From NCBI RefSeq assembly GCF_001633165.1, contig NZ_CP015418.1, forward strand, positions 558,001 to 622,000: a stretch of DNA of 64,000 bases, read 5' to 3'. Shown piece by piece: positions 25,301 to 42,334 of the stretch (positions are counted from its first letter, which is position 1; each line of letters begins with the position of its first letter). This stretch comes from Rhodovulum sulfidophilum DSM 1374. GTDB lineage: Bacteria; Pseudomonadota; Alphaproteobacteria; Rhodobacterales; Rhodobacteraceae. The notes below the pieces were generated by a model that was not told the DNA's origin, ran no database searches, and saw only the letters and a list, made by a program, of their open reading frames with translations. The position numbers were made by a program, and so were the translations under genes.

Positions 25301-26061
25301 CCCGGGTTCTCACGATCGAGGGGCTGAGCGTTTCCGCCGCCGCCCGGCCGCTGCTGCGCGACCTCAGCCTCGAGATCGCGCAGGGCCGCACGCTTGCGCT
25401 GGTCGGCGCCAGCGGATCGGGCAAGTCCACCGCCTGCGCCGCGGCGCTGGGGGTGCAGGCAGGCAATCTCGAGGTCAGCGGACAGGTCTGCCTGGACGGC
25501 AATCCGGTGCCGCCCGACCGGCTGCGGGGGCGGGTCGTGGCCTCGATCCTGCAGAACCCGCGCAGCGGCTTCAACCCGCTCCGGACCATGCGCGACCACA
25601 TGCGCGAGACCTGCCGGGCGCTGGAGCGGCCCTGGGCCGAGGATACCGCGCGGCACCTGCTGGCCGAGGTGGGTCTCGAAGACCCCGACCGGGTGCTCGG
25701 CCTTTATGCCTTCGAGATGAGCGGCGGCATGCTGCAGCGCGTGGCCATCGCGCTGGCGCTGCTCGGCGGGGCGCCGTTCCTCTTCGCCGACGAGCCGACG
25801 ACGGATCTCGATCTGGTGGTACAGGCGCGCATCCTCGATCTGCTGGAACGCAGCCGCGACCGGGCGAGGCTGGGGCTGCTGCTGATCACCCATGACATGG
25901 GCGTCGTCGCGCGGCTGGCCGATGAGGTGGCCGTGCTGGAGGCCGGGATCGTGGTCGAGCGCGGCCCGGTCGGACAGATCTTCCACGCTCCGCGCCATCC
26001 GGTGACGCGGATGCTGGTCGCGGCGCATCTTGCCCTTTACGGAAAGGAGCTGCCGGCATGA
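25297..26061 (+). CDS. nikD: nickel-type ABC transporter ATP-binding protein NikD
   Basis: A 254-residue ATPase with Walker A GASGSGKST, Q-loop LQNPRSGFNP, a slightly odd signature MSGGMLQR, Walker B FLFADEPTTDLD and H-loop ITHDMG, all catalytic residues present. No ATG fits; TTG at the nikC stop (TTGA overlap) gives [12 protein letters not shown], the normal family start, so TTG is chosen. Confidence 0.85.
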   Translation: MTRVLTIEGLSVSAAARPLLRDLSLEIAQGRTLALVGASGSGKSTACAAALGVQAGNLEVSGQVCLDGNPVPPDRLRGRVVASILQNPRSGFNPLRTMRDHMRETCRALERPWAEDTARHLLAEVGLEDPDRVLGLYAFEMSGGMLQRVAIALALLGGAPFLFADEPTTDLDLVVQARILDLLERSRDRARLGLLLITHDMGVVARLADEVAVLEAGIVVERGPVGQIFHAPRHPVTRMLVAAHLALYGKELPA

Positions 26062-26942
26062 GCCTGCTTGCCGCCCGTGGCCTGTCGCACAGCTATCGCA
26101 GCCATCCGCTGCTGGGCCCGGCAAGAACGCATGAGGCGCTGTCGGATATCTCGCTGGAGATCGCCGAAGGCGAGACCGTGGCCCTGCTCGGACGCTCGGG
26201 CTGCGGCAAGAGCACCCTCGCGCGGCTGATTTCGGGGCTCGAGCGGCCGACGGAGGGCGAGATCCTGTTCCGGGGTACGCCGCTGGCCGCGGCACGCGGC
26301 GCGGCGCGGCTGAAGATGCGGCGCGCGGTGCAGATGGTGTTTCAGGATTCGCCCGATGCCACCAATCCCCGCCATACCGTCGGCCGGATCGTCGCCGAGC
26401 CGCTGCGCCATCTGACCCGGCTGGACCGCAAGGGCCGCGAGGCGCGCGTCGCCGAGCTGCTCGATCTGGTCGAGCTGCCGCCCCGGACCGCCGGAATGCG
26501 CCCCGGCCAGCTGAGCGGCGGCCAGTTGCAGCGGGTCTGCATCGCCCGCGCCCTTGCCCCCGAACCCCGGCTGGTCATTCTCGACGAGGCGGTGTCGAAC
26601 CTCGATCTGCACCTGCAGGCCAGCACGCTGGCCTTCCTCGGCGACATCCGCCGCCAAAGCGGCATCGCCTGCCTCTTCATCACCCATGACCTGCGTCTGG
26701 TGAGCCGTTTCGCCGACCGCGTGCTGGTGATGGACCGGGGCCGGATCGTCGAGGAAGCCCCCTCCGGAGAGCTCGCGACGCTGTCGCATCCCGCCTCGCG
26801 CGCCCTCCGCGAGGCCATTCTGCCGCCATTTCCCGGCCGCCCGGCCGCCAGCAAGGCCGTGACCCTGCCTGAAAACCCGCGCGAAATCCCGACGGCGCCT
26901 GTCGAGGCCGACGCTGTCCCCAGCCCGATCCCCGTCCCCTGA
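26058..26942 (+). CDS. nikE: nickel-type ABC transporter ATP-binding protein NikE
   Basis: A 294-residue ATPase, last gene of the operon. It has Walker A GRSGCGKST, Q-loop VFQDSPDATNP, signature LSGGQLQR, Walker B VILDEAVSNLD and H-loop ITHDLR. The last 30 residues (ASKAVTLPENPREIPTAPVE...) are a low-complexity tail beyond the usual end. ATGA overlap with nikD. No nikR gene follows, so the proposed regulator must be elsewhere. Confidence 0.86.
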   Translation: MSLLAARGLSHSYRSHPLLGPARTHEALSDISLEIAEGETVALLGRSGCGKSTLARLISGLERPTEGEILFRGTPLAAARGAARLKMRRAVQMVFQDSPDATNPRHTVGRIVAEPLRHLTRLDRKGREARVAELLDLVELPPRTAGMRPGQLSGGQLQRVCIARALAPEPRLVILDEAVSNLDLHLQASTLAFLGDIRRQSGIACLFITHDLRLVSRFADRVLVMDRGRIVEEAPSGELATLSHPASRALREAILPPFPGRPAASKAVTLPENPREIPTAPVEADAVPSPIPVP

Positions 26943-27362: not shown

Positions 27363-28100
27363 CTAGGGGGCAAGTGTCCCGACCGGGCGCGTCCCGCTTT
27401 CATCCTTCAGCGCGACGCCGGTCCGGCCCAGCTTGCGGGCAGCGTCGATCAGCCAGGCGATGCGCGCGGCCGCCGCCTCGGGCGAAAGCCCGCCCATGCG
27501 GTGGATATTCGACACGCAGTTCCGGGCGCTGTCCCTTGTGCCGGGCACAGGGTTGGCGGTGAGATAGGCCCCGAGACTGTCGGAGACGCTGAGCCCCGGG
27601 CGCTCTCCGATCAGCATCAGGCACATCGCGGCCCCCATCCGGCGGGCGATGTCGTCGCCAAGCGCCACCCGCGCGCCCTCGGCGAGGATGACGGGCGTGG
27701 TGTCCAGCTCGGGCAGCGCCGGGCGCAGGGCCGCAATCACCGGCGCCGCATGGGCAAGCGCGGGGGCCGACAGCCCGTCTCCGACCACCACGACCAGCGG
27801 ATGGCCCGCCCGGGGCAGATCCACCGGCTCGGCCAGACGGCGGCCCAGATCGGGACGGCGCAGATAGATGCTGCGCTCGACCGCCTGACTTTGCACCCGG
27901 ATCGTGGCAAGCGGGGCCAGCGCCGCCGCAAGCGCGTCCCAGTCGGGCCGGGCGTGGATCGCGTCGCGGGCACCGGCATGCGCCTCCTGGAAATCGAGAA
28001 GAGCGCCAAGCGGCGTGGGGCCCGCCGCCGCATCCAGCCGCACCCGGGCGGGCGTCATCGCCCGCAGCCGTCCGAACCCCGTGCTGACGCTGTCGCTCAT
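27363..28100 (-). CDS. eutC: ethanolamine ammonia-lyase small subunit
   Basis: With EutB it splits ethanolamine into acetaldehyde and ammonia using adenosylcobalamin. The 245-residue protein shows the EutC core: TPARVRLDAAAGPTP, FQEAHAGARDAIH, VGDGLSAPAL, LIGERPGLSVSDSLGAYLT and NCVSNIHRMGGLSPEAAAARI. It lacks the longer N-terminal extension of the enterobacterial protein, as in many other bacteria. Last gene of a ten-gene operon; its ATG overlaps the eutB stop. No microcompartment or eutA genes are nearby. Confidence 0.93.
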   Translation of the reverse strand: MSDSVSTGFGRLRAMTPARVRLDAAAGPTPLGALLDFQEAHAGARDAIHARPDWDALAAALAPLATIRVQSQAVERSIYLRRPDLGRRLAEPVDLPRAGHPLVVVVGDGLSAPALAHAAPVIAALRPALPELDTTPVILAEGARVALGDDIARRMGAAMCLMLIGERPGLSVSDSLGAYLTANPVPGTRDSARNCVSNIHRMGGLSPEAAAARIAWLIDAARKLGRTGVALKDESGTRPVGTLAP

Positions 28101-29476
28101 GTCAGGATCCCCATCCGTTTGCCAAGCGCCGCCGGGTCGGGCAGCGCGGCCGCCCCCTGCGCCAGCCCCATCCGCGCCAGCCAGGCCTCGAATTCGGGCG
28201 CCGGCCGCAGCCCCGTCACCTCGCGCAGATAGCCGATATCCTCGAAGGCGAGGCTCTGATAACCCAGCATCACGTCATCCGCCCCGGGCACGGTGATCAG
28301 GAAAGTCACCCCCGCCCGGGTCAGCAGCGTCATCAGCACGTCCATGTCGTCCTGATCGGCCTCGACATGGTTGGTATAGCAGACATCGACCCCCATCGGC
28401 AGGCCCAGCAGCTTGCCGCAGAAATGGTCCTCGAGCCCGGCGCGGATGATCTGCTTGCCGTCATAAAGATATTCCGGCCCGATGAAGCCCACGACGGTGT
28501 TGACCAAAAGCGGCCGGAAGGCCCGCGCGACGCCATAGGCCCGGGCCTCCAGCGTCTGCTGATCGACGCCGTGATGGGCCTCGGCCGACAGCGCCGCACC
28601 CTGCCCGGTCTCGAAATACATCACATTGTCGCCGACCGTGCCGCGCCCCAGCGCGCGGCCCGCCTCATGCGCCTCGGCAAGCACCGACAGGCTGACGCCG
28701 AAGCCCTCATTGGCGGCCTCGGTCCCGGCCACCGACTGGAAGATCAGATCGACCGGCGCGCCCCCCTCGATCAGGCGGAGCGCGTTGGTGACATGGGTCA
28801 GCACGCAGGTCTGGGTCGGGATGGCGAGGCTGGCGACCATCTCGTCCAGCGCCGACAGAAGGCCCGCGCAATTCTCCAGATTGTCAGAGGCCGGGTTGAT
28901 CCCGATCACCGCGTCGCCTGCCCCGAACAGCAGCCCGTCAAGGGTCGCGACCGCGATGCCGCGCGCGTCGTCGGCCGGGTGATTGGGCTGCAACCGGGTC
29001 GAAAGCGTCCCCGACCGACCGATGGTGTTGCGAAAGCCGGTCACCACCTCGACCTTCCGCGCCACCCGGATCAGGTCCTGGTTGCGCATCAGCTTCGACA
29101 CCGCGGCAACCATCTCGGGCGTCAGCCCCGGCGCGGCCTCGGCAAGACGCGCGGCATCGGCCGCAGGCGACAAGAGCCAGGCGCGGAAATCGCCCAGCGT
29201 CATCGCCGCGAAGGGCGCGAAGGCGGCGCGGTCATGGGTATCGAGGATCAGCCGCGTGACCTCGTCCTCCTCATAGGGCACGACCGCCTCGGTGAGGAAC
29301 TCGGCCAGCGGCAGATCGGCCAGCGCCCGCCGCGCCGCGACGCGTTCGGTCGCGCTTTCGGCCGCGATGCTCGCAAGCTGGTCGCCCGAGCGCTCGGGCG
29401 TGGCCGCGGCCAGAAGCCGGGCCAGAGACCCGAAGACGAACCGCTCGCCCCCGGCTGTGGCACTGTATCGGGGCAT
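28097..29476 (-). CDS. eutB: ethanolamine ammonia-lyase large subunit
   Basis: The catalytic, B12-binding barrel subunit, 459 residues, close to the normal 450-465. Landmarks are NTIGRSGTLSTRLQPNHPADD, GDAVIGINPASDN, PTQTCVLTHVTNALRLI, FQSVAGTEAANEGFGVSL, YFETGQGAALSAEAHHGVDQQT and the end GLRPAPEFEAWL. All are well kept, so an active enzyme is expected. No reactivating factor (EutA) and no acetaldehyde dehydrogenase lie beside it; these must be supplied elsewhere. It starts 17 bases after the phosphotransferase gene. Confidence 0.95.
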   Translation of the reverse strand: MPRYSATAGGERFVFGSLARLLAAATPERSGDQLASIAAESATERVAARRALADLPLAEFLTEAVVPYEEDEVTRLILDTHDRAAFAPFAAMTLGDFRAWLLSPAADAARLAEAAPGLTPEMVAAVSKLMRNQDLIRVARKVEVVTGFRNTIGRSGTLSTRLQPNHPADDARGIAVATLDGLLFGAGDAVIGINPASDNLENCAGLLSALDEMVASLAIPTQTCVLTHVTNALRLIEGGAPVDLIFQSVAGTEAANEGFGVSLSVLAEAHEAGRALGRGTVGDNVMYFETGQGAALSAEAHHGVDQQTLEARAYGVARAFRPLLVNTVVGFIGPEYLYDGKQIIRAGLEDHFCGKLLGLPMGVDVCYTNHVEADQDDMDVLMTLLTRAGVTFLITVPGADDVMLGYQSLAFEDIGYLREVTGLRPAPEFEAWLARMGLAQGAAALPDPAALGKRMGILT

Positions 29477-29493
29477 ATTTCCGCCCTCCCGTT

Positions 29494-30438
29494 TCAGACC
29501 GTCCGCAGATGCTTCGGCCAGTCCTGATGGCCGGTGATCTGGCGGAACCGCATCAGCTTCCACATCCCGTATTTGTGGAAATCGAAGGCCAGCCGCGACA
29601 CCCGCAGCTGTACCATGGACCAAAGCGCCCATTTCACATCGGCCAGCGCCTTGTGGAGGATGACGCGCGACACGATCTCGGGGCGGACCTCGCCGAAATA
29701 CGCCTCGATCAGCTCCAGCTCCTGTTCGGGGGTGAAGAACATCTCGCCGAAGAGCAGGCCGAAATCATAGCATCGATCGTTCATCGAGGCATATTCATAG
29801 TCGATCAGCAGGATCGAACCGTCCTCGCCCACCATGAAATTGCCCGGCATCGGATCGTTGAAACAGGGTACAAGATCGAGCCCGGAAGCCATCAATGCCT
29901 CGCGCGCCAGCCGCTCGTTCAGCATGATCCAGTCATGGTCGGGAAAGCGCGGCGCGCCCAGATCGGCGGCCTGCGCGGCATGTTCGTCGATCATGTCGAA
30001 GACGGTCTTGGTCGCGGCCAGCCCGGGCATGCCATGCAGCTTGCGATAGGCGGCGATGGCCGCGCGCCGCTTGGCGGGATCGGCGAAATCGCTATGGGTC
30101 GCGGGGCGGCGGTCGGCCATGAAATCGTTGATCTCGACGCCCTCGGCCGCCAGATCGCCATAGACGCCCGGCCCGAGCCCCGCCGCCGCCGCCTTCTGCG
30201 AGGCCTCGAAGGCGGCCTTGCGGTCGATGAACATCTCGGTGCCGTTGCCGGGGATCTTGACGAACCAGTCGCCGCTGCCATCGGTCGCCGTGACCCGCCA
30301 GTTCTCGTTGCTGATCCCGCCCGAGACCGGGCCATAGACCATGCCCGCCCCGCCCCGGAACAAGGGCGCCTTGCGGATCACCGCCTCGATCGCCTCTTCC
30401 ATCGGATGCGAGGCACAGCCCAGCGTCTTCATGCTCAT
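29494..30438 (-). CDS. choline/ethanolamine-kinase-like phosphotransferase A (APH fold)
   Basis: A 314-residue protein of the aminoglycoside/choline kinase fold. VYGPVSGGISNENWRV is the nucleotide loop, WFVKIPGNGTE has the ATP-binding Lys, and the catalytic loop reads PCFNDPMPGNFM followed by LLIDYEYASMND. The Brenner motif HxDxxxxN is therefore FxDxxxxN: catalytic Asp195 and Asn200 and metal-binding Asp213 remain but the His is Phe193. It could phosphorylate an amino alcohol; next to eutBC, ethanolamine or a derivative is the natural guess. ATGA overlap with phosphotransferase B. Confidence 0.82.
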   Translation of the reverse strand: MSMKTLGCASHPMEEAIEAVIRKAPLFRGGAGMVYGPVSGGISNENWRVTATDGSGDWFVKIPGNGTEMFIDRKAAFEASQKAAAAGLGPGVYGDLAAEGVEINDFMADRRPATHSDFADPAKRRAAIAAYRKLHGMPGLAATKTVFDMIDEHAAQAADLGAPRFPDHDWIMLNERLAREALMASGLDLVPCFNDPMPGNFMVGEDGSILLIDYEYASMNDRCYDFGLLFGEMFFTPEQELELIEAYFGEVRPEIVSRVILHKALADVKWALWSMVQLRVSRLAFDFHKYGMWKLMRFRQITGHQDWPKHLRTV

Positions 30439-31379
30439 GCCGCCCCTCCTGCCAGCCGGATCTTCTGCTCGAAGCCGGGATGGTTCAGCGCCATCCGCAG
30501 CCGCATCAGCCGCCATTCGCCGTATTTCAGCCATTCGACGCCGCCCCGGACCGAGGTCCGCGCCTTCAGCCTAGACCAGAGCGCATGCAGCATGTCGTCG
30601 ACGAAGGACCAGAGCCGGGCACGGGCAAAGCCGGTCTCGTCGAAGCACCCCGCATAGGCGACGAAGCCCGCCTGCATGTCGCGTTCGAAATCGGTGGTTT
30701 CGGCCAGCAGCGCGCCCAGGTCGTAAAGCGGGTCGTTCATCCCCGCCCGGTCGTAATCCACCAGCAGGACGGCGCCGTCCGGCCCCAGCATCAGGTTCGA
30801 GGCGGACCCGTCATTCCGGCAGGGCGCCAGCGTGGCACCCGCCCTCAGCACCGGCTCGGCGGCGCCGATCAGACGGCGCAGCCAGTCGATATCGTCGGGC
30901 AGGGGCGCGCCGAGGCGACGATACTCGGCGATCAGGGCGTCGATCTGCGCGAAGGGATCGAAGCGGTTGGAAAGCGCAGGCGTCGCGTGCAGCGCCTTCA
31001 GCGCGGCCATTGCCCCGGCCAGAACCGGCGCCTCCTGCAAGTCCTTCTGCATCGCGCGCCGCCAGCCCCCGGCCTCGGTCAGCGCCTCCATGGCGATGGC
31101 GCCCTGCCCGGCGTCCGACCACAGCACCCTGGGCCCAACCCCCGCCGCGCCCGCCTGCCGGGCCAGCGTCATGGCAGCGTCGAGATCGAAACCTTCCCGC
31201 ATCTCGGGATGCATGACCTTGAGAAAGACGCCCCCGGCGGTCAGGATCGAGGCGCTTTCAAGCGCCAGGTAGCTGGGCGAGGCCAGCGGCGCGGGCCCGG
31301 GCCGGGCGTCTGCATCCGACAGGCCCGCAGCGGCACAGGCGGCGGCCATCATCTGGTCTGTGACAAGCGCCCCGGTCAT
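30435..31379 (-). CDS. choline/ethanolamine-kinase-like phosphotransferase B (APH fold)
   Basis: A second, diverged 314-residue APH-fold protein. The front end SYLALESASILTAGGVFLKVMHPEM gives the kinase Lys; the catalytic loop is APCRNDGSASNLM and the metal site LLVDYDRAGMNDPLYDLGALLAE. Asp190, Asn195 and Asp208 are present, but Arg188 replaces the Brenner His. The same replaced position in both neighbouring kinases is notable. The two may form a heterodimer or act on successive substrates. Overlaps by four bases with genes on both sides, so it is tightly bound into the operon. Confidence 0.8.
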   Translation of the reverse strand: MTGALVTDQMMAAACAAAGLSDADARPGPAPLASPSYLALESASILTAGGVFLKVMHPEMREGFDLDAAMTLARQAGAAGVGPRVLWSDAGQGAIAMEALTEAGGWRRAMQKDLQEAPVLAGAMAALKALHATPALSNRFDPFAQIDALIAEYRRLGAPLPDDIDWLRRLIGAAEPVLRAGATLAPCRNDGSASNLMLGPDGAVLLVDYDRAGMNDPLYDLGALLAETTDFERDMQAGFVAYAGCFDETGFARARLWSFVDDMLHALWSRLKARTSVRGGVEWLKYGEWRLMRLRMALNHPGFEQKIRLAGGAA

Positions 31380-32650
31380 GCATTCGCCCCCAGGGCAAAA
31401 TCCAGATCGCCGCCCGCGCGGTCGATCCGGCGGACCATGTCGGTCAGCACGTCGCCGCCCGCGGCCAGATCCTCGGGGCTGGTATATTCGTCATTGCGGT
31501 GGATCACGCCGCCGACCGAGGGCACCGCGAAGACGAGGCTGGGCAGGATCGCGTTCACCGCCACCGCGTCATGGCCGCCGATGGTGTCAAGCTGCATCCG
31601 GGGCAGCCCGAAATCGTCGGCAACGCGTTCGGTCAGCCGGGCGAGGCGCGGATCGAACTTTCCGGCCGGGCGACGGTCGATCGAGACGATCTCGGCATGG
31701 GTCGCGGCCTTCGCGGCCAGTTCCGGCAAGGCGGCGCGCAGGCTGGCCTCGGACCAGTCCAGCATCGCCGGTTCGGGCGCCCGAAGCTCGCAGAAAAGCA
31801 CGGCTTTCCCGGGCACGATATTGGGTGAATTGGGCGAGATGTCGACCCGCGCCACCGAGGTATAAAGCGTGTCCTCGGCGATATCGGCCAGCCGCCGTAT
31901 CTCGGCGATGATATGGGCCGCGCCCAGAACCGCATCCTTGCGGTCCTCCATCGGCGTCGGGCCGGTATGGTTCTGCTCGCCTGTGACCTCGATCCGCACC
32001 TTCAGCGCGCCCCAATGGCGCAGGAAGGGGGCGATGCGGGCGCCCGCTGTCTCCATCTTGGCATCGCCCTCGATATGGATCTCGAGATACAGATCGGGGC
32101 GCGGGGCGGGGTCGGTGCCCTTGTAGCCGGTCCGGACCAGCTCTTCGCCGACGCTTTTCCCGTCGCGGTCGCGCCGCGCCAGCGCCCAGTCGAGATCGAC
32201 AAGCCCGGCAAAAACCGACGAGCCCAGAAGGCTGGGCTGGAACCGCGCGCCCTCCTCGTTCATCCAGTCGGCGATGACATAGTTGCAGCGCGGCTTCCTG
32301 ACATCGCGGCGGAAACTCTCGATCGCGGCCAGTGCCGCCATCACCCCATAGGCGCCGTCGAACCGCCCGCCCCTGGGCTGGCTGTCGAGATGCGAACCGA
32401 TCATCACCAGGGGCGCGTCCGGCCCCGCGAGGTCGATCCGCCCGAACAGGTTGCCGATCGCGTCGACCAGCACGGTATAGCCGCGGGCGGTCAGCTCGGA
32501 GCGGAACCAGTCGCGGGCGGCCTTGTGGGCATCGGTCAGGACCGGGCGGTCGACACCGCCATCGCCGGTCGAGCCGAATTCCGACACCTTCTCCATGAGC
32601 CCGTGCAGAAGATCGGCGTCGATGCGGGCAAGGCTGGGCATTTCAGGCAT
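31376..32650 (-). CDS. M20-family Zn-dependent amidohydrolase (hydantoinase/carbamoylase type)
   Basis: A 424-residue cytoplasmic metalloenzyme related to AllC, HyuC and beta-ureidopropionase, which cut N-carbamoyl or ureido amides. The metal-binding pattern is complete: GSHLDSQPRGGRFDG (His87, Asp98), WMNEEGARF (Glu132, Glu133), EIHIEGD (His192) and the late VIHRNDEYTS His. The dimer-site GEQNHTGPTPMEDRKDA is also present. HIEGD replaces the common HIEQG, which may mark a different substrate. It lies between the importer and the kinases, suggesting that the imported compound is first freed from an amide. Confidence 0.85.
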   Translation of the reverse strand: MPEMPSLARIDADLLHGLMEKVSEFGSTGDGGVDRPVLTDAHKAARDWFRSELTARGYTVLVDAIGNLFGRIDLAGPDAPLVMIGSHLDSQPRGGRFDGAYGVMAALAAIESFRRDVRKPRCNYVIADWMNEEGARFQPSLLGSSVFAGLVDLDWALARRDRDGKSVGEELVRTGYKGTDPAPRPDLYLEIHIEGDAKMETAGARIAPFLRHWGALKVRIEVTGEQNHTGPTPMEDRKDAVLGAAHIIAEIRRLADIAEDTLYTSVARVDISPNSPNIVPGKAVLFCELRAPEPAMLDWSEASLRAALPELAAKAATHAEIVSIDRRPAGKFDPRLARLTERVADDFGLPRMQLDTIGGHDAVAVNAILPSLVFAVPSVGGVIHRNDEYTSPEDLAAGGDVLTDMVRRIDRAGGDLDFALGANA

Positions 32651-34526
32651 GGGGGGTCTCCGTGGCAGTCTCGGGCAGGGCATTTTCGGGCAGGGCGATG
32701 TCGGGTTCGGGGTTCAGGAAGCAGGCGGCCAGCGCATGACCGCCGCGCGCGCGCAGGGCCGGGTTCTCGGCCCGGCAGCGGTCGAAGGCCTGCGGGCAGC
32801 GGCTGGCGAAGGCGCAGCCCGGGGGCAGGTCGATGGGGCTTGGGGGTTCGCCTTCCAGCAGGCAGTCCTCGGGCCGGTAGCGGCGTTCCTCCAGCGTCGG
32901 CGCGGCCGAAAGCAGCGCGCGGCTATAGGGATGGCCCGGGTCGAAGAACAGCCGCTCATTGGGCGCGACCTCGACCGTCTCGCCCAGATACATCACCGCG
33001 ATCCGCGAACAGACCTGCCGCACCATGGTCAGGTCATGCGAGATGAAGATATAGGTAAAGCCGTGCTGGGCCTGCAGCTTGTCGAACAGATCCAGAAGCT
33101 TGCCCTGTTCGGTCTGGTCAAGCGCCGACAGCGTCTCGTCCATGATCAGAAGCCGGGGTTCCAGGATCATCGCGCGGGCCACGTTCAGCCGCTGGCGCTG
33201 GCCGGCCGAAAGCCCGGTGGGCAGCGACCGGTACAGGCTGTCGTCAAGCCCCACCTCGGCCATCACCGCCCGCGCCCGGTCGCGCCGCTCGGCCGCATTG
33301 CCGATCCGGTGGATCTTCAGGGGCTCCTCGAGGATCGCGCCGATCGCGGATTGCGGCGGCAGGCAGCCGTAAGGGTCCTGCAGCACCAGCTGGAACCTGC
33401 GGCGCAGTTCGCGCAGGCGTCTGGGGCTGGCGGCGGCGACATTCTCGCCCTCGAAGAAGACCGAGCCCGCATCGGGCCGTTCCAGCCCGGTCAGAAGCCG
33501 CATCAGCGAGGATTTCCCGCAGCCGGATTCGCCGACGACACCGAAATTGTCGCCCGGAAAGACGTCGAATTCGACATTGCGGACCGCCTGCACCCGCGAC
33601 ACGCCGGCCTGGCCGCGCGCGCGCACCTCATAGGCCTTGGCCAACCCCCGGACCGACATGATCGCGCGCCGGTTCCGGTCGATATCGCGACCCGCGCCGG
33701 TCTGCCCGTCCTGCCAGAGCGTGGGCAGCTCGGCGATCAGCGCGCGCGTGTAGCTGTGTTCCGGACCTGCCACCAGCGCCGCCGGGGTCTGGCGTTCGAC
33801 CACCCGGCCCTCATGCAGCACCATCACCTCGTCCGAGGCATCGCAGGCCACCGGCAGCGAGGAACAGATGAACAGGATCGCCGTCGAGAATTCGGAATTC
33901 AGCTCGCGCATCAGCTTGAGGATCTGGGCGGCCACGGTCACGTCCAGCGGCTGGGTGATGTTGTCGGCGATCAGAAGCGCGGGGTCCGAGATCAGCGCAT
34001 CGACGATCATCGCCCGCTGCATCATGCCGCCCGAATACTGGAACGGATATTCGTGAAAGCGGCGCGCGGCCGAGGGGATATGCACCGCCTCCAGCAGCCG
34101 GATCGCCTTTTGCCGCGCCGCCTCGGCAGAGATGTCGGGCCGGACCGCGCGGAGCTTTTCCACCAGCTGCGCGCCCACCGTCATGGTCGGGTCGAGCGCG
34201 CCCGCCGGGTTGCCGCCGACATAGGCGATCTCGCGCCCGGCAAGATTGCGGGCATGCGCGGGGTCGGCCACGAGGTCGCGGCCGCGAAACCGGATCTCGC
34301 CCCCCGTCACCCGGAGCGGCGCCGACAGCCAGCTGGCAAGCGCACGGGCCAGCACGGTCTTGCCCGCGCCGGTGGCGCCGATCACCGACAGGATCGAGCG
34401 CGGCGCCAGATCGAAGGAGATGTCGGTCAGGATCGGCCTGTCGCCGGCGACGACATTCAGGCCACGCACGCTGAGCAGGGTATCGGGCAGCAGCCTGTCG
34501 GGGGTTGCGGTCATGTCCAGGGCCAT
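32643..34526 (-). CDS. fused double ATP-binding protein of a peptide-type ABC importer, first half degenerate
   Basis: A 627-residue fusion of two DppD/DppF-like ATPases. Half 1 (about 15-275) keeps Walker A GATGAGKT and YSGGMMQR but has YVGGNPAG instead of the Q-loop, LLIADNITQPLD in place of DEPT (catalytic Glu replaced by Asn189) and LFICSSLPV in place of ITHDL (His replaced by Ser). Half 2 (about 290-600) is complete: GESGCGKSS, LVLQDPYG, LSAGQRQR, LLIMDETLSALD, ISHDLT, then the Cys-rich oligopeptide-family tail CAFASRCPQAFDRC. So only one of the two ATP sites of the importer should turn over normally. One base separates it from the permease gene. Confidence 0.88.
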   Translation of the reverse strand: MALDMTATPDRLLPDTLLSVRGLNVVAGDRPILTDISFDLAPRSILSVIGATGAGKTVLARALASWLSAPLRVTGGEIRFRGRDLVADPAHARNLAGREIAYVGGNPAGALDPTMTVGAQLVEKLRAVRPDISAEAARQKAIRLLEAVHIPSAARRFHEYPFQYSGGMMQRAMIVDALISDPALLIADNITQPLDVTVAAQILKLMRELNSEFSTAILFICSSLPVACDASDEVMVLHEGRVVERQTPAALVAGPEHSYTRALIAELPTLWQDGQTGAGRDIDRNRRAIMSVRGLAKAYEVRARGQAGVSRVQAVRNVEFDVFPGDNFGVVGESGCGKSSLMRLLTGLERPDAGSVFFEGENVAAASPRRLRELRRRFQLVLQDPYGCLPPQSAIGAILEEPLKIHRIGNAAERRDRARAVMAEVGLDDSLYRSLPTGLSAGQRQRLNVARAMILEPRLLIMDETLSALDQTEQGKLLDLFDKLQAQHGFTYIFISHDLTMVRQVCSRIAVMYLGETVEVAPNERLFFDPGHPYSRALLSAAPTLEERRYRPEDCLLEGEPPSPIDLPPGCAFASRCPQAFDRCRAENPALRARGGHALAACFLNPEPDIALPENALPETATETPHA

Positions 34527-34527
34527 C

Positions 34528-35439
34528 TCACGCTCCTCCGTAGATCGCGTTCCGGGCGCGTTCGAGAGAGGCACCCATCAGGTTGATGCTGGTCAGGGTC
34601 AGCACCAGAAAGACGCCGGGCATGGTGGCGATCCACCAGGCGTTCATCAGGTACTTGCGCCCGTCGGCGATGACATTGCCGAAGGTGGGGGTGGGCGGCT
34701 GCACGCCCAGACCCAGAAAGCCCAGCACGCTTTCGAAGATCATCATCCGCGCGATATCCAAGACCGCTACGAAGGCCATCGGCGGCAGCACCAGCGGCAG
34801 CAGCAGCGTGAACATGATCCGCAGATCGGTGGCCCCCAGCACCATCGCGCCGCGCACATATTCCTTCTTGCGCTCGGACATCACGGTCGAGCGCATCACC
34901 CGCGCATAGACCGGCCAGCCCGCCAGCCCCAGCACCAGGATGATCGAGGGGATCGTGGGCCGCGAGACGCCCAAGATGGTGATCGCGAGGATGATCATCG
35001 GGATCGACAGCTGGGCATCGGTCAGCCGCATCAGGACGGTATCGGTGCGGCCGCCGAAATAGCCCGAGAACAGCCCGATCATCGCCCCCGCCAGCAGCAT
35101 CAGGACCGTGGTCGAGACCCCGATCAGAAGCGAATAGCGCAAGCCCACAAGTGCGCGCGAAAGCATGTCGCGGCCAAGCTGGTCGGTGCCCAGCGGATGC
35201 GCCCAGCTCCAGCCCTCGCCCATGAAGACGGGCGGGGTCAGCTTGGCGCGGATGTTCATCTTGGTCGGGTCGATGCCGCTGAGCTCGGGATACAGCAGCG
35301 CCGCCAGCAGAAGCAGAACGAAGACGGTCAGCCCGATCCGGAACTCGACCGAGGCGAAGGCGGTCTGCCAGATCCGGGTGGACACGCGGCGCCCGGTCTC
35401 GGGGCCGGTCATGGCAAGGGGCATATCGGTGCTGGTCAT
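34528..35439 (-). CDS. peptide-type ABC importer permease (DppC class)
   Basis: A 303-residue inner-membrane protein with the DppC landmarks: PLGTDQLGRDMLSRALVGLRYSL after the first helix and periplasmic loop, the coupling stretch GAMVLGATDLRIMFTLLLPLV, and SVLGFLGLGVQPPTPTFGNVIADGR near the end. About six helices. Its ATG shares one base with the stop of the upstream permease (TGATG), so translation is coupled. It works with the DppB-class permease, the fused ATPase and the Tat-type binding protein. Confidence 0.88.
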   Translation of the reverse strand: MTSTDMPLAMTGPETGRRVSTRIWQTAFASVEFRIGLTVFVLLLLAALLYPELSGIDPTKMNIRAKLTPPVFMGEGWSWAHPLGTDQLGRDMLSRALVGLRYSLLIGVSTTVLMLLAGAMIGLFSGYFGGRTDTVLMRLTDAQLSIPMIILAITILGVSRPTIPSIILVLGLAGWPVYARVMRSTVMSERKKEYVRGAMVLGATDLRIMFTLLLPLVLPPMAFVAVLDIARMMIFESVLGFLGLGVQPPTPTFGNVIADGRKYLMNAWWIATMPGVFLVLTLTSINLMGASLERARNAIYGGA

Positions 35440-36419
35440 CAGTAGTCGAGCCTCGGATCGATGGCGGTGGCCAGAAGGTCCACGGCGATGTTGATCAGGA
35501 CGAAGACGGCGGCGGTGACGATGGCGATGCCCTGGATCAGCGGGAAATCGCGCTGCATCACGGCATTGATGGTCAGAAGGCCGAGCCCCGGGTAGTCGAA
35601 GATGAACTCGATCACGAGAACCCCGCCCAGAAGCATCGAGAACTGCACGCCCAGCAGGTTCAGAAGCGGCACTGCCGAATTCTTCAGCGCATGGCGAAAG
35701 ACGATCTGGTTGCGCGACAGGCCACGCACGCGGGCGATGTCGATGAAGCTCTGCCCCATCACCCCCGCCACCGAGACGGTCAGGGTGCGGATGATGAAGG
35801 GCGCGATCTCGACCGCCAGAACCAGCGCCGGCAGGATGGTGTAGGAAAACCCCTTGTAGCCGATGGCGGGCAGCAGGTTCAGCTTGACCGACAACAAGAG
35901 CGCCAGAACGATCCCCAGCCAGAAATTGGGCAGGCTCACGAACAGGGACGAGCTATAAAGCGCCAGCCGGTCGGGCAGCCGCCCCGGGTAAAGCCCGCCC
36001 CAGACGCCGATGGGCACCCCGATCATCAGGGCAAAGACCATCGCCAGCAGCGCCAGCTGCAGCGTCATCGGCGCGGTCTCGGCGATCAGGTCAAGCACCT
36101 TGGCGCGCTCGCCGCGGGTGGAATCGTCGAAGCTTGCGCCCCCCACGGCAGCGCCGCTGGCGGGCCGCACGAAGGATTCGCCCAGATCGCCCTGCAGCAC
36201 ATTGCCCATGTAGCGGCCGAACTGGACGTAGATCGGATCGCGCAGCCCCATTTCGGCGGCGATCTCCTCGACCAGGGTATCGGGGGCCATGCCCCCCACC
36301 ATCAGCCGGACCGGATCGCCCGGCACGACGCGCAACAGCGTGAAGATCAGGGCAGAGACCAGAAAGATGATGATCGCGCCCTGCCCCAGCCGTCGCGCGA
36401 GGAATCTTAGGATGAACAT
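35439..36419 (-). CDS. peptide-type ABC importer permease (DppB class)
   Basis: A 326-residue permease starting MFILRFLARRLGQGAIIIFLVSALIFTLLRV, the standard first helix, then LPNFWLGIVLALLL and the coupling loop DIARVRGLSRNQIVFRHALKNSAVPL. A periplasmic insertion (about 85-110, RPASGAAVGGASFDDSTRGE) is longer than usual. An upstream in-frame extension exists but overlaps the binding-protein gene antisense-like and is rejected. The gene follows the binding-protein gene after a strong hairpin. Confidence 0.87.
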   Translation of the reverse strand: MFILRFLARRLGQGAIIIFLVSALIFTLLRVVPGDPVRLMVGGMAPDTLVEEIAAEMGLRDPIYVQFGRYMGNVLQGDLGESFVRPASGAAVGGASFDDSTRGERAKVLDLIAETAPMTLQLALLAMVFALMIGVPIGVWGGLYPGRLPDRLALYSSSLFVSLPNFWLGIVLALLLSVKLNLLPAIGYKGFSYTILPALVLAVEIAPFIIRTLTVSVAGVMGQSFIDIARVRGLSRNQIVFRHALKNSAVPLLNLLGVQFSMLLGGVLVIEFIFDYPGLGLLTINAVMQRDFPLIQGIAIVTAAVFVLINIAVDLLATAIDPRLDY

Positions 36420-36454
36420 CGGCAAGCTCCCGGATGCGTGGCGTTCCCGTCGAT

Positions 36455-36490
36455 GGCCGGAGCCCCCGGATGAGTGGCGGGGCTCCGGCC
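36455..36490 (-). promoter_or_regulatory. intercistronic hairpin between binding protein and permease
   Basis: A perfect 12-base stem (GGCCGGAGCCCC / GGGGCTCCGGCC) with a 12-base loop lies between the binding-protein stop and the permease start. In ABC operons such hairpins protect the upstream message and let the binding protein be made in excess. Confidence 0.7.
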
Positions 36491-36496
36491 GGCCGA

Positions 36497-38071
36497 TCAG
36501 CTCAGCGTCGTCCGGGATGCGTCCGACTGGCCATCCGGATAGATGAAGAGCCCGTCCACATTGCTTCGCATCCCGTGGATCAGCACCGAGGTGAACAGGC
36601 TCAGCGCCGGGGCCTTGTCGGCCAGCATCGGCATCAGGTTGGTCTGCAGGCTTTCCTTGCGCGCCTCGAGCGAGGGCGCGTCGCGTTCGGCATCGAGCGC
36701 GGCGTCGATCTCGGGATCGACGATGCCGCAGATCCGCTTGGCGCTGGAATGGAAATGCGTGCGCAGGACCAGATCGGGCTCGGGCGAGCCGGTGGACCAG
36801 CCGCAATCGACCATATGGCCCGGGCCGCCGCCTGGGCGGTCGTAGAGCCGCTCGTTCCAGGCCGCGACCTCCATCACGTTCAGCTTGACCGGGAAGCCCT
36901 GTTCCTGCAGCAGCGCCGCGATCAGCTCGCCATATTCCTTGGTCTTGGGATAGAAGCCGGTCGAGGTGATGTATTCCAGCTCGGGCAGCCCCTCGCCGCC
37001 CGGATAGCCCGCCTCGGCCAGCAGGCGCTGGCATTCGTCGGGATCGTATTCGGGGTAATTCTCCAGATCGATATAGCCGAACTTGATCGGCGAGATGAAA
37101 TTCGACGAGGCCTCGCCGGCCGAGCCCATGATCTCCATGATCATGCTGCGGTCGATGGCATGGCAGGCGGCCCTGCGCACGCGCCAGTCGTCGAAGGGCG
37201 GCTTCGAGCAGCGGAACCACAGGTACTTGTTCTCGACCGAGACCAGCCGCGAGATCTTGATGTCGTCGCGCGCCTCCAGCGTCTCGACCTGTTCGGGCTC
37301 CAGCCGTTCGATGACATCGGCCTGCCCGTTCATCAGCGACAGCATCCGGGTCGTGGCATCGCCCACAAACGAGAAGGTGACGCCCGTGACCTTGGGCGCG
37401 CCGCGGAAATAGCCCTCATAGGCTTCCATCACGGTGTCGTTGCCGCGCTGCTCGACAAAGCGGAAGGGGCCGGTGCCGTTCAGCCGCTGCGACAGCGGCC
37501 CCTTGGGGCCCCCGGCCACGTCCTTCGCCGACAGGATCGGCAGATAGGAGGCAAGGAAGATGAACAGCGAGGCGCCATAGCCGCCCTTCGAGGTGTCGAC
37601 GATCACGGTATGATCGTCGGGGGTCTCGACCGCGAAAGTGTCGGGGCCGCCCGGATAGACCTGCTTGGGCCGGTCGAGCTGGGCGCCATATTCGAAGGTC
37701 GCCTTGACGTCCTCGGCGGTGAAGGGCTTGCCGTCATGGAAGGTGATGCCGTCCCGCAGCTTGATCTGCAGCCGGTGGGCATCCAGTTCGGTGATCTCGG
37801 TGGCGAGCTCGTAGACCACCTTTTCGGGATCGTCGGGGCGCATCGGGGCCCGGGTCAGGTAACCCATGACGAAGCCCTCGATATTGGTCTGGGACAGCGT
37901 CGTATGCGCGGTCGGGTCCCAGTTGCCGGTGATGTTCTCGGCCGAGAGGAACACCAGCGGGCGGGCCTCCTGCGCAAAGGCCGAGCTGAAGAAGAAGTCG
38001 GGATTGATGCGCGCCGCGCCCAGGGCCGTTCCGGCCAGGGCGCCGTATCGAAGGAAACTCCGTCTGTCCAT
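36497..38071 (-). CDS. Tat-exported substrate-binding protein of a peptide-type ABC importer
   Basis: A 524-residue periplasmic protein. MDRRSFLRYGALAGTALGAA is a twin-arginine signal; export is expected at about residue 33. The body fits SBP_bac_5: TTLSQTNIEGFVMGYLTRAP, LRDGITFHDGKPFTAEDVKATFEY, GTGPFRFVEQRGNDTVM, VTFSFVGDATTRMLSLMNGQADVIE and VRRAACHAIDRSMIM. The ligand is not known. A folded, Tat-exported binding protein and neighbouring amidohydrolase and ethanolamine genes suggest a small amide or amino-alcohol conjugate rather than a peptide. It is the second gene of the operon, after the IMPase-like phosphatase. Confidence 0.87.
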   Translation of the reverse strand: MDRRSFLRYGALAGTALGAARINPDFFFSSAFAQEARPLVFLSAENITGNWDPTAHTTLSQTNIEGFVMGYLTRAPMRPDDPEKVVYELATEITELDAHRLQIKLRDGITFHDGKPFTAEDVKATFEYGAQLDRPKQVYPGGPDTFAVETPDDHTVIVDTSKGGYGASLFIFLASYLPILSAKDVAGGPKGPLSQRLNGTGPFRFVEQRGNDTVMEAYEGYFRGAPKVTGVTFSFVGDATTRMLSLMNGQADVIERLEPEQVETLEARDDIKISRLVSVENKYLWFRCSKPPFDDWRVRRAACHAIDRSMIMEIMGSAGEASSNFISPIKFGYIDLENYPEYDPDECQRLLAEAGYPGGEGLPELEYITSTGFYPKTKEYGELIAALLQEQGFPVKLNVMEVAAWNERLYDRPGGGPGHMVDCGWSTGSPEPDLVLRTHFHSSAKRICGIVDPEIDAALDAERDAPSLEARKESLQTNLMPMLADKAPALSLFTSVLIHGMRSNVDGLFIYPDGQSDASRTTLS

Positions 38072-38143
38072 GGTGGTGCTCTCCTTGTTGGTCTGTCTGT
38101 TGTCGTGATGACGGCAGGCCCCGGTTGATCCGGGATCGCTGCC

Positions 38144-38938
38144 TCAGGCCGCCTGGCCTGCCCGCAGCCTCGCGATCCGGTCCAGCATGGCCCGGTGCAG
38201 CTCGGGCGTGGCCGCAGCCAGCACCTCGCCGGCCGAGCCGACGCCAAGCGCCTGCCCCTGCCAGTCGGTGATGACCCCGCCCGCGCCGCGGATGACCTGC
38301 ACCAGCGGCAGGTAGTCGTAAGGCTGCAGCCCGGTTTCCAGCACCAGATCGCAATGGCCCGAGGCCAGAAGCGCATAGGCATAGCAATCGCCGCCGAAGC
38401 GCAGCATCCGGACCGACCGGCGCAGCATCTCCAGCACCTCGCTATCGGCGCCCGAGAACAGCATGGGATCGGTGGTATAGGCGAAGGCCTCGGCCGGATC
38501 GGTGCAGGCGCTGGTGCGGCAAGGCCGACCGTTCAGGGTGGTGGCCTGGCCCTCGACCCCGCACCAGCGCTCGCCGAGCGCGGGCATGTCGATCTGCCCC
38601 AGACAGGGCGCGCCATCCTTCAGAAGCGCCATCAGCCCGCCGAACAGCGGATTGCCGGTGACATAGCTCTTGGTGCCGTCGATCGGATCGACGACCCACA
38701 GGTGGTCGCTGTCGGGGCGCAGCGGCGCCTGTTCCTCGCCGAAGATGCCATGGCCGGGAAAGCGCGCCATGATCCGGTCGCGCATCAGCGCCTCGACGGC
38801 GCGGTCGGCCAGGGTGACGGGACTGTCATCGGCCTTGCTCTCGACATCCAGCGCCTGACGGAAATGCTTCAGCGCGACGCGGCCCGCCTCGTCTGCCGTG
38901 TCATTCGCGAAACGCAGCGCATCGCCCAACTCGCCCAT
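38144..38938 (-). CDS. inositol monophosphatase-family phosphatase
   Basis: A 264-residue Mg-dependent phosphatase. Metal-site motifs are SPVTLADRAVEALMRD, GIFGEE (Glu68/69), WVVDPIDGTKSY (Asp84, Asp87) and the late LETGLQPYDYLPL in place of the usual WD motif. The close resemblance is to the HisN/histidinol-phosphatase and IMPase-like branch. In this operon it may dephosphorylate a product of the kinases, or a phosphorylated substrate; a histidine-biosynthesis role is possible but the context does not favour it. The ATG reads MGELGDAL; a longer frame runs into the promoter. First gene of the operon, divergent from the DeoR gene. Confidence 0.85.
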   Translation of the reverse strand: MGELGDALRFANDTADEAGRVALKHFRQALDVESKADDSPVTLADRAVEALMRDRIMARFPGHGIFGEEQAPLRPDSDHLWVVDPIDGTKSYVTGNPLFGGLMALLKDGAPCLGQIDMPALGERWCGVEGQATTLNGRPCRTSACTDPAEAFAYTTDPMLFSGADSEVLEMLRRSVRMLRFGGDCYAYALLASGHCDLVLETGLQPYDYLPLVQVIRGAGGVITDWQGQALGVGSAGEVLAAATPELHRAMLDRIARLRAGQAA

Positions 38939-39211
38939 AAGTACCAACCCCGGCCTTGCAATTCGACATGTTCTTTCTCCAGCTTCCACAGTCAGGACGG
39001 AAAACGTCAAGAAAAACGCACATAAATCCCCATAATTCACAAATAGCCTAGATGATAAGCGTGCTGCACGCCCGAAAGCGTGTGGAATACGCGATTAAAC
39101 AGGCAAGCTCCGCGACATTCCGCCCCCAGGTCCCACAAATTTCCCACGCAAATGTGGCGAATCCCGCAGGGCCTGCTAAAAAGACACAAGGGATATGAGG
39201 AGAGTTCCGGG
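38939..39211. promoter_or_regulatory. divergent control region of the ABC-eut operon and its DeoR regulator
   Basis: A 273-base AT-richer gap between two divergent genes. It holds CATAA repeats (near 39022 and 39034), a GCGTG-CTG-CACGC hairpin at 39059-39071, and an imperfect inverted repeat CCACA(A)ATTT...AAATGTGG at 39133-39157. One or more of these could be the DeoR site; none is a clear consensus match. No cobalamin riboswitch was recognised. Confidence 0.45.
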
Positions 39212-39982
39212 ATGCAGCCTTACGAAAGACACGCGAAGATCCTGGAGCGGCTCGGCCATGACCGCCGGGTCTTCACCGCCCAGCTGGCGCGGATGTTCGA
39301 CGTCTCGCATGAAACCGTGCGCCGCGACCTTCTCGAGATGGAACAGAGCGGCAGCCTGACCCGGGTCCATGGCGGCGCCGTCGCGGCGGATCGCGAGATC
39401 CTGCCAGAGCCCGCCTTCTCGGAACGCCGCGTCGTCCATGCGGACAAGAAGGCCGCCATCGGCGCGCTGGCCGCGACCCTGATCCCGCCGGGTTCGACCG
39501 TCTTCATCGACGCGGGCACCACGACCTGCGCCTTCGCCCGGGCGCTGGCGCGGGAGGGCGAGATGCGGATCATCACCAATTCCATCGAGATCGCACAGCT
39601 CGCCGGCCCCGCCCGGGACTGCGACACGCTTCTGCTGGGCGGACGCCCCCATACCGACGTGCCCGCCACCTATGGCGAGATGACCCTGTCCGAGATCGAC
39701 CGCTTCCTTGCCGATTACGCCGTGCTTTCGCCGGTCGGACTGCATGCCGACCGGGGCGCGACCGATTACGCACTGCACGAGGCCGAGGTCGCCCGCGCCA
39801 TGATGCGGCGCTCGCGCGATTGCATCATGCTGTGCCATTCGGAGAAGATCGGCACCGAAAGCCGGGTCTCGATCTGCCGTCTCGACGAAATCGACCATCT
39901 GGTCACCGATGACGCCGCCGACCGCAGCCTGCGCCTGCCCCGCGGCGAGATCCATTACGCAGAGACGCGCCCGGGCCTCTGA
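39212..39982 (+). CDS. DeoR/GlpR-family transcriptional regulator
   Basis: A 256-residue repressor type. The N-terminal helix-turn-helix reads RVFTAQLARMFDVSHETVRRDLLEMEQSGSLTRVHGGAV, the family signature. The C-terminal effector domain has VFIDAGTTTCAFARAL, IITNSIEIAQL and LLLGGR, the phosphorylated-ligand pocket of the DeoR C-domain. GAGGAG precedes the ATG. It is divergent from the ten-gene operon, so local control is likely; a phosphorylated metabolite as inducer would fit the two kinase genes in the operon. Confidence 0.9.
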   Translation: MQPYERHAKILERLGHDRRVFTAQLARMFDVSHETVRRDLLEMEQSGSLTRVHGGAVAADREILPEPAFSERRVVHADKKAAIGALAATLIPPGSTVFIDAGTTTCAFARALAREGEMRIITNSIEIAQLAGPARDCDTLLLGGRPHTDVPATYGEMTLSEIDRFLADYAVLSPVGLHADRGATDYALHEAEVARAMMRRSRDCIMLCHSEKIGTESRVSICRLDEIDHLVTDDAADRSLRLPRGEIHYAETRPGL

Positions 39983-40855: not shown

Positions 40856-42334
40856 TCAGAGAAAGGCGGTTTCCTCGAAGCTGCGCAGCTTGCGGCTGTG
40901 AATGCGTTCCAGCGGCATGTCACGCAGAAGCTCCATCGCCCGCACCCCGATCGCCAGATGCCGCGCGACTTGGGTCTTGTAGAAATCAGACGCCATGCCC
41001 GGCAGCTTCAGCTCGCCATGCAAAGGCCGGTCGGACACGCAAAGCAGCGTGCCGTAGGGCACCCGGAAACGAAAGCCGTTGGCGGCGATGGTGGCGCTTT
41101 CCATGTCGAGCGCGATGGCGCGGGACTGCGACAGCCGCTGCACCGGGCCGGTCTGGTCCGACAGTTCCCAGTTGCGGTTGTCGATGGTGGCGACCGTGCC
41201 CGTGCGCATGATCCGCTTGAGCCCGTAGCCCTCGAGCCGGGTCACCTCCTCGACCGCATCCTCCAGCGCGACCTGGATCTCGGCCAGCGCCGGGATCGGC
41301 ACCCAGAGCGGCAGGTCGTTGTCCAGCACATGATCCTCGCGCAGATAGCCATGGGCCAGCACGAAATCGCCCAGCCGCTGCGAATTGCGCAGGCCCGCGC
41401 AATGGCCCACCATCAGCCAGGCATGCGGGCGCAGCACCGCGATATGGTCGGTCGCGGTCTTCGCATTCGAGGGGCCGACGCCGATATTGACCAGCGTGAT
41501 GCCCTGCCCGTCGGCGCGCTTGAGGTGATAGGAGGGCATCTGCGGCAGCTTGAGCGGCACCGGCAGCTGGGTCTCGGGCGCCCGGATCTCGGCATTGCCG
41601 GGACCGACCAGCGCGGTATAGCCGCTGTCGGGATCGGCCAGCGCCCGCCGCGCCAGCGCCTCGAATTCCTCGACATAGAACTGGTAGTTGGTGAACAGGA
41701 CGTGGTTCTGGAAATGCTCGGGCGCGGTCGCGGTGTAATGCGCGAGCCGGGCCAGCGAATAATCCACGCGCTGCGCGGTAAAGGGTGCCAGCGGCCGGGC
41801 CGCGCCCTCGGGCATGGTCCAGGTGCCGTTGACGATGTCGTCATTGGTCGTGGTCAGGTCCGGCACGTCGAAGAGATCGCGCAAGGGCACCTCCAGCGCG
41901 CCGTCCTGGGGCACGGTGACCCCGGCGCTGCCCATCGCGAAATGAATCGGGATCGGCGTGGTCGAGGGGCCGATCATCACCGGCTGGCCGTGGTTTTCCA
42001 GAAGCAGCCCGATCTGCTGGCGCAGGTAATTGGCGAAAAGATCGGGCCGGGTGACGGTGGTGACATAGGTGCCGGGCTCGGCGACATGACCGAAAGACAG
42101 GCGGCTGTCGACCAGGGCATGGCTGACCGTGGTGAAGCGGATCTCGGGATAGACCGCGCGGAACCGGGCATGGGGGGCCGATCCGGACAGCACCTCGGCG
42201 AAGCGGGCCCGAAGAAAACCGGTTGCGGTCTCATAAAGCTCGACCAGCCGTCCGACGGCTGCGGCCGCATCCGTGAAGGCTTCGGCGTCGGGCAGGCTGG
42301 GGCTGGAAAGCGGAAGGTCGCTCTGGTCCGGCAT
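40856..42334 (-). CDS. amn: AMP nucleosidase
   Basis: Splits AMP into adenine and ribose 5-phosphate, adjusting adenylate pools. The 492-residue enzyme has an N-terminal regulatory domain (about 15-190: FRAVYPEIRFTTVSHALVDSRLSFGHVAEPGTYVTTVTRP) and a C-terminal nucleoside-phosphorylase-like domain (LVNIGVGPSNAKTATDHIAVLRPHAWLMVGHCAGLRNSQRLGDFVLAHGY; IALDMESATIAANGFRFRVPYGTLLCVSDRP). Length matches the family. The start MPDQSDLPLSS is preferred over a frame that would extend into the repeat region upstream. Confidence 0.95.
   Translation of the reverse strand: MPDQSDLPLSSPSLPDAEAFTDAAAAVGRLVELYETATGFLRARFAEVLSGSAPHARFRAVYPEIRFTTVSHALVDSRLSFGHVAEPGTYVTTVTRPDLFANYLRQQIGLLLENHGQPVMIGPSTTPIPIHFAMGSAGVTVPQDGALEVPLRDLFDVPDLTTTNDDIVNGTWTMPEGAARPLAPFTAQRVDYSLARLAHYTATAPEHFQNHVLFTNYQFYVEEFEALARRALADPDSGYTALVGPGNAEIRAPETQLPVPLKLPQMPSYHLKRADGQGITLVNIGVGPSNAKTATDHIAVLRPHAWLMVGHCAGLRNSQRLGDFVLAHGYLREDHVLDNDLPLWVPIPALAEIQVALEDAVEEVTRLEGYGLKRIMRTGTVATIDNRNWELSDQTGPVQRLSQSRAIALDMESATIAANGFRFRVPYGTLLCVSDRPLHGELKLPGMASDFYKTQVARHLAIGVRAMELLRDMPLERIHSRKLRSFEETAFL

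Follow-up and report, generated by a model that had tools for sequence, protein, structure and literature searches.

What a bacterium might gain by joining ethanolamine ammonia-lyase to an importer, a hydrolase, two kinases and a phosphatase is the question raised by a ten-gene operon of Rhodovulum sulfidophilum DSM 1374. The window analyzed, a stretch of 64,000 nucleotides (positions 558,001 to 622,000 of contig NZ_CP015418.1), carries the operon on its minus strand at 27363-38938, with a DeoR-family gene diverging from it at 39212-39982 on the plus strand. Comparison across genomes demonstrated that the constant part of such loci is a core of two tandem kinases of the choline/ethanolamine-kinase fold and an M20-family hydrolase, usually accompanied by an oligopeptide permease (Opp)-type ATP-binding cassette (ABC) importer, the DeoR gene and a HisN-type phosphatase. 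The ammonia-lyase subunits EutB and EutC are optional, and seem to have joined this core several times. Tentatively, we read the operon as a mobile module for the catabolism of a small conjugate that holds an amino alcohol in amide-type linkage (N-acyl or N-carbamoyl). The genes, with K1 and K2 denoting the kinases, and a putative operator are listed below.

27363..28100, minus: EutC, ethanolamine ammonia-lyase light chain, an optional part of the locus (PF05985, 235 bits; NF003971, 234.9 bits, cut-off 230)
28097..29476, minus: EutB, ethanolamine ammonia-lyase heavy chain (PF06751, 693 bits; NF011649, 683.5 bits, cut-off 554)
29494..30438, minus: K1, choline/ethanolamine-kinase-like kinase (PF01633, 80 bits, cut-off 29)
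30435..31379, minus: K2, diverged second kinase with the same fold as K1 (PF01636 only, E 0.001)
31376..32650, minus: M20 hydrolase of the hydantoinase/carbamoylase (allantoate amidohydrolase-like) group (NF006772, 659 bits, cut-off 424)
32643..34526, minus: importer ATPase with two fused ATPase domains, oligopeptide/dipeptide type (PF00005 in two stretches, PF08352)
34528..35439, minus: importer permease (PF00528)
35439..36419, minus: importer permease (PF00528, PF19300)
36497..38071, minus: family-5 solute-binding protein (SBP) (PF00496, 230 bits)
38144..38938, minus: HisN/inositol monophosphatase (IMPase)-type phosphatase (TIGR02067, 277.6 bits, cut-off 275.15; best solved relative 5eq7)
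39133..39157, no strand: putative DeoR operator, CCACA-N15-TGTGG (pattern recurs in Rhodobacterales intergenic regions)
39212..39982, plus: DeoR/GlpR-family regulator, divergent (GlpR/AgaR-type models, none above cut-off)

The ten-gene operon is real at these coordinates: family profile matches bore out an earlier note on this DNA, which had described ten minus-strand genes running from the phosphatase to EutBC beside a divergent DeoR gene. That note had the genes mostly overlapping by 1-8 bases, which holds for five of the nine junctions and was otherwise overstated, the remaining gaps being 1, 17, 72 and 77 bases. Starts were set at ATG 29476 for EutB, whose longest frame opens at 29632, and at ATG 39212 for DeoR.

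Loci for comparison came from one scan of genome contigs with K2 (12 loci), from whole-genome searches with K1 or K2, and from 22 plasmid regions picked by hand among 93 records that matched K1 at 1e-20. Of the sixty loci entered in the table, ten with near-identical K1 (L021, L047, L061-L066, L090 and L095) were removed, leaving 50 distinct ones; L057, which shares a contig with L010, was excluded. Presence of a gene was scored by tblastn at identity thresholds of our own. K1, K2 and M20 occurred together in 48 of the 50 distinct loci, M20 being missing from L059 and L097, and the Opp-type importer accompanied all three in 38. Every one of those 38 importer-bearing core loci held DeoR, and 32 held HisN. 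Chance does not account for the arrangement, because other genera show near-identical gene order and 17 of the 50 loci include EutB.

The core is a mobile gene set of patchy distribution. Genomes with a K1 match numbered 3 of 16 in the genus, 6 of 198 in the family, 3 of 385 in the class and 6 of 398 in the phylum; two other families had 11 of 248 and 8 of 119. The core is also plasmid-borne, including on pRi1724, pRi2659 and pAoF64/95, the last an opine-catabolic plasmid according to the excerpts of PMC6341043.

Several plasmid copies have surroundings of their own. On a Paracoccus yeei plasmid (NZ_CP020441.2; L062, 12550-16767), a reduced copy retains DeoR, a phosphatase remnant, about two thirds of K1, EutB and EutC; importer, M20 and K2 were not seen in it. 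On pRi1724, pRi2659 and pAoF64/95 (L033, L034, L065), genes for GDSL hydrolases and a sugar-type ABC importer come after the core together with glpK and glpD, with acs in addition on pAoF64/95, which suggests that a second nutrient system adjoins it there. Three plasmids of Rhizobium and Sinorhizobium (L037, 14369-18624; L060; L063) have a set of PxpA, biotin carboxylase and urea-carboxylase-like genes next to the core.

Both kinases are nearest to choline/ethanolamine kinases, a more specific placement than the aminoglycoside phosphotransferase (APH) fold of the earlier note, a label that still described the profile match of K2. K1 scored above the PF01633 cut-off and carries the catalytic residues; its Asp195, Asn200, Asp213 and Glu215 were conserved in 98-100% of 50 K1 rows, and its closest solved relatives were 3dxq and LicA (4r77). 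K2 has the fold and catalytic residues of choline/ethanolamine kinases, and the profile scan gave it no PF01633 sequence match. Because only PF01636 (APH) was reported, K2 is classed by its fold and not as a named member. The name GntI (guanitoxin kinase) was rejected for the kinases, as the matches of 115 and 76 bits fell far under the cut-off of 357. A predicted structure of K1 (predicted local distance difference test, pLDDT, 75.6) was not used further.

The M20 hydrolase scored within the hydantoinase/carbamoylase subfamily and carries its metal ligands; the five positions that we presume to be those ligands were kept in 47 of 47 relatives. Identity with AllC (allantoate deiminase) was rejected, TIGR03176 giving 164.7 bits, far below its cut-off of 597.75. 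In the HIEQG segment, which is typical of carbamoylases, G replaces Q in 31 of 47 readable loci, while 14 keep Q and 2 have C, a variation that is possibly a marker of substrate. The phosphatase barely passed the HisN model, and HisN is its predicted type by that model.

In the alignment of binding proteins, the SBP position matching Asp408 of DppA, which is presumably the residue holding the peptide amino group, was Gly or Ala in 39 of 39. Judging from this residue, transport of ordinary dipeptides is therefore an unlikely role for the importer, in keeping with the conjugate uptake that the earlier note proposed. The SBP N-terminus (MDRRSFLR), compared with those of relatives, looks like a twin-arginine signal. 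A sodium:solute symporter replaced the importer in 3 of the 50 loci, in Pseudomonas and Pantoea together with an amidase, and a symporter in that place favors a small solute as substrate. In some genomes, an apparent branched-chain-type ABC set, with weak ATPase matches, and an amidase adjoin the core.

EutB and EutC both scored above the curated cut-offs for ethanolamine ammonia-lyase; this EutB, whose best solved relative was 2qez, was the sole EutB match in the genome and, being 99% identical to P0004, would place the window in or near R. sulfidophilum. The motifs R[LN]QPN, NPA[ST]D, ETGQG, VVGFIGPE and VDVCYTNH, which we take to be active-site motifs with roles as in the E. coli enzyme, were kept in 17 of 17 module EutBs. 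The earlier note had remarked on the absence of eutA, an aldehyde dehydrogenase and shell genes. No shell protein or EutE was encoded among the ten operon genes, the rest of the genome not having been searched for them, and a genome search for the eutA reactivase returned one partial match elsewhere, at 19.6 bits against a cut-off of 27. The absences thus stood, and their strangeness did not: missing eutA and shell genes are not unusual, because Acinetobacter baumannii EutBC functions without shell, EutA or EutE according to the partial text of PMC9426561.

The gene-order search upheld the linkage of EutBC with the importer, hydrolase and kinase set, which the earlier note had proposed from the one operon. 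EutB lay inside the locus in 17 of the 50, or in 19 when two loci cut by contig ends are counted: in L048 (G046), the first 28 EutB residues follow K1 at the contig end (22 bits, below the cut-off), and in L104 (G1168), EutB is on the contig carrying the other part of K1. Four arrangements were found, namely K1-eutBC in Rhodobacterales, HisN-eutBC in several Rhizobium-type loci, eutBC divergent from the SBP gene in L099, and, on Ri-type plasmids, divergent eutBC adjoining a gene of the N-formylglutamate-amidohydrolase family.

In a tree of 51 EutBs, 21 of them from module loci, a single clade of module EutBs was rejected (approximately unbiased test, p 4e-6), and module membership needed four changes, three of them forced by supported branches. 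That tree omits the long-branched non-module EutBs of L146 and L147 and the protein-database rows; with these included, six changes were needed, some from rows of unknown context. The EutB of L099 fell into two tblastn pieces, of which one was entered in the trees. On the K1 tree, with EutB scored present by hand for L048 and L104, its presence changed nine times. Because the module EutBs are not one clade and membership needs four changes, three of them forced, EutBC appears to have been added to the core repeatedly; we infer this rather than observe it, since gains and losses are indistinguishable on the K1 tree. Cereibacter L009 nests inside Rhodovulum on that tree, with no EutBC found downstream and a near-identical K1 in L047 (G051), which suggests transfer followed by loss of EutBC.

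Other ethanolamine-type enzymes lie beside some cores. A class III pyridoxal phosphate (PLP) enzyme was near the core in 4 of the 50 loci (L025, L054, L094 and L103), none with local EutB. The L094 enzyme scored 382 and 375 bits to the phospholyase 5g4i and human ethanolamine-phosphate phospho-lyase 6tor, the next entry reaching 203; that of L025 scored 338 and 263 bits, the next entry reaching 158. By these scores, both are closer to the phospho-lyases than to other class III enzymes, including transaminases; identity within the group, which takes in L054 and L103, was 73-74%. The case of L025 is weak because its PLP gene is convergent and the close relative L066 lacks it. L050 and L054 have nearby a glutamine-synthetase-like gene, under the cut-offs of named models, and an iron alcohol dehydrogenase.

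As to regulation, the pattern CCAC[AG]-N14-16-[TC]GTGG occurred between DeoR and HisN in 11 of 18 Rhodobacterales loci (shuffle mean 0.06), the pattern having been picked after the alignment was viewed and some of the 18 being close relatives. TGTGG/CCACA half-sites numbered 58 in these intergenic regions versus 11.9. A conserved inverted repeat at this place fits control of the operon by DeoR. In 20 other loci, covered upstream of the SBP gene and between the ATPase gene and DeoR, the pattern had no match upstream of any SBP gene, and the single match lay inside a 7-kb non-intergenic stretch of L094. No riboswitch was detected in the window at gathering thresholds, which returned only a tRNA; a sigma-70 promoter scan found 0 sites (1.0 expected), and 6 terminator-like sites were found versus 5.2 expected, figures too near expectation to be informative.

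Gene content, the conserved core, the repeated link to separate EutBCs, the kept catalytic residues and the candidate operator were observed, and from them we infer the substrate class, the order of steps, the purpose of phosphorylation and the effector of DeoR. The near-constant hydrolase and two-kinase core, its importer and the interchangeable ethanolamine-type enzymes alongside are most simply explained if an imported amide-type conjugate is turned by the core into an amino alcohol or the phosphate of one. The Opp-type importer would take the conjugate into the cell, K1 and K2 would phosphorylate it or its amino-alcohol product, and the M20 hydrolase would cleave the amide bond. The HisN-type phosphatase would then release the amino alcohol, and EutBC would convert it to an aldehyde (acetaldehyde, if the amino alcohol is ethanolamine) and ammonia. 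DeoR would repress the divergent operon, with a phosphorylated intermediate probably its effector. HisN directly before EutBC in several loci is consistent with release of a free amino alcohol, and phosphorylation may trap the conjugate, shield it during cleavage, or produce the DeoR inducer.

A number of observations weigh against this scheme. EutBC was absent from 31-33 of the 50 loci, for which reason it must be regarded as optional and not, as the earlier note had cast it, as the heart of the operon. Of 28 core-bearing genomes, 12 carried EutBC together with the core. The 16 others comprised 12 with EutB elsewhere and four (G051, G125, G135 and G523) with none anywhere, indicating that the product of the core can be used without EutBC. 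The phospho-lyase-type genomes G715, G1152, G1175 and G1267 also carry EutB elsewhere, so that any replacement of EutBC by a phospho-lyase is local only, and our confidence in the scheme, tentative from the start, was lowered slightly for this reason. One EutB locus, L097, had no M20 at the threshold used, its K1 match stood at 37% on a very long branch, and a class III aminotransferase relative in it reached 31%, under the 40% threshold, all of which makes its membership in the module doubtful. HisN was present in all 17 EutB loci (Fisher p 7e-4, uncorrected), an association given little weight because it lost significance once kinship was taken into account (2-3 pairs in favor, 0 against, p 0.25). 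In addition, a kinase and a phosphatase on one path are wasteful, for a reason that is unproven, and membership in families as broad as M20 and the amidases does not specify the amide. On the supporting side, with kinship not corrected, EutB was present somewhere in 8 of 8 K1-bearing genomes of family f70 versus 13 of 42 others (p 4e-4); among relatives of the window, 19 of 176 had EutB above the cut-off.

The frequent lack of EutBC would be expected if the compound degraded by the core had nothing to do with ethanolamine, being for example an opine, a purine-breakdown ureide or a plant hydroxy-amide, and if EutBC had joined the core for a minor ethanolamine product or to supply nitrogen in the same habitat. 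We consider this possible, if doubtful. It is in line with the placement of M20 in the allantoate-amidohydrolase group, with the location of the core on pRi1724, pRi2659 and the opine-catabolic pAoF64/95 (from the part of PMC6341043 cited above), and with core neighbors such as a nucleoside deaminase and molybdopterin-binding proteins in Shinella, allophanate hydrolase and HpxZ in Pseudomonas, and urease in Paracoccus methylovorus. However, these purine- and urea-type neighbors vary between the loci read, and the links to phylogenetically separate EutBCs and to local phospho-lyase-type enzymes point to an amino alcohol as a main product.

The choline/ethanolamine-kinase likeness of K1 and an EutBC intact at the checked motifs would also suit an operon that imports free ethanolamine, or a choline-like amino alcohol, with the kinases making a phospho-amine for lipids or as DeoR inducer and EutBC degrading the excess. 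That M20, nearly as constant as the kinases (48/50), would have no role there renders this improbable, and it would be unusual for a family-5 binding protein to serve so small a molecule. Very improbable, in our estimate, is a resistance or detoxification cassette in which the kinases and hydrolase inactivate a toxic amide entering the cell. The conjugate-degrading module may also be extended to a more specific and undescribed pathway, mobile on plasmids, in which an amino-alcohol conjugate originating in plants or algae would be imported, pass through a phosphorylated (protected) intermediate by means of the paired kinases and M20, be dephosphorylated, and be consumed by host-recruited EutBC, phospho-lyase or gamma-glutamyl ligase; in that full form we think it unlikely. 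Were it true, the substrate would, given that Ri-type and opine-catabolic plasmids carry the core, count as a new opine-like nutrient.

A convergent nickel importer, outside the module, occupies 21881-26942 (plus strand), with NikA, NikB and NikE passing their models and NikD slightly under (284.9 versus 318.7), and an AMP nucleosidase gene lies past DeoR at 40856-42472 (minus strand; TIGR01717, 668 bits).

Attachment of an ethanolamine-consuming enzyme more than once to one import-and-cleave module would offer a handle on a bacterial nutrient that is apparently unnamed. Since the module is carried by plasmids of plant-associated and other bacteria, root-inducing and opine plasmids among them, its substrate may matter in plant-microbe exchange. 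The module also offers a natural test of whether a breakdown pathway can use phosphorylation for protection.

Routes that couple a kinase to a phospho-lyase are already known. The ethanolamine-phosphate phospho-lyase route (6tor; 5g4i; microcompartment aminopropanol kinase 6ef6) shares amino-alcohol kinase chemistry with the operon, and a phospho-lyase-type gene near a core lacking local EutBC was found in the four loci described above. The lyase is mentioned in the excerpted text of PMC8154272. For the M20 hydrolase, paired choline-kinase-fold kinases, HisN and importer together, no description was found in open-licence PubMed Central text, among the matches listed, in agreement with the earlier note, which knew of no such pathway; the gene families are known singly, and the combination appears undescribed. 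A term search did not turn up the word "ethanolamine" in the main text, as far as it was accessible, of the pAoF64/95 paper (PMC6341043) or of two Ti plasmid papers.

The eut genes of A. baumannii resemble those studied here in having EutBC without shell, EutA or EutE; they form a short operon for free ethanolamine, whereas EutBC here is tied to an importer, a hydrolase and two kinases (PMC9426561, in part). The gamma-glutamylethanolamide route of Streptomyces coelicolor (GlnA4) likewise uses ethanolamine without a microcompartment, and its glutamine-synthetase-like gene is paralleled loosely at L050 and L054, where the short-chain dehydrogenase of the Streptomyces cluster gives way to the iron alcohol dehydrogenase (excerpts of PMC6529630). 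The formylglutamate-amidohydrolase family proposed in the same excerpts for the last step of that route is the one adjoining eutBC on Ri-type plasmids, a further likeness (PMC6529630). Unlike the GlnA4 route, the window operon has no glutamine-synthetase-like gene.

AccA was among the relatives found in the PDB. The agrocinopine (Acc) and other opine operons have a family-5 binding protein, a DeoR-type regulator and an IMPase-type phosphatase and are often plasmid-borne, as here; in place of a phosphodiesterase, which is missing from the ten genes, the operon of R. sulfidophilum carries two kinases, an M20 hydrolase and EutBC.

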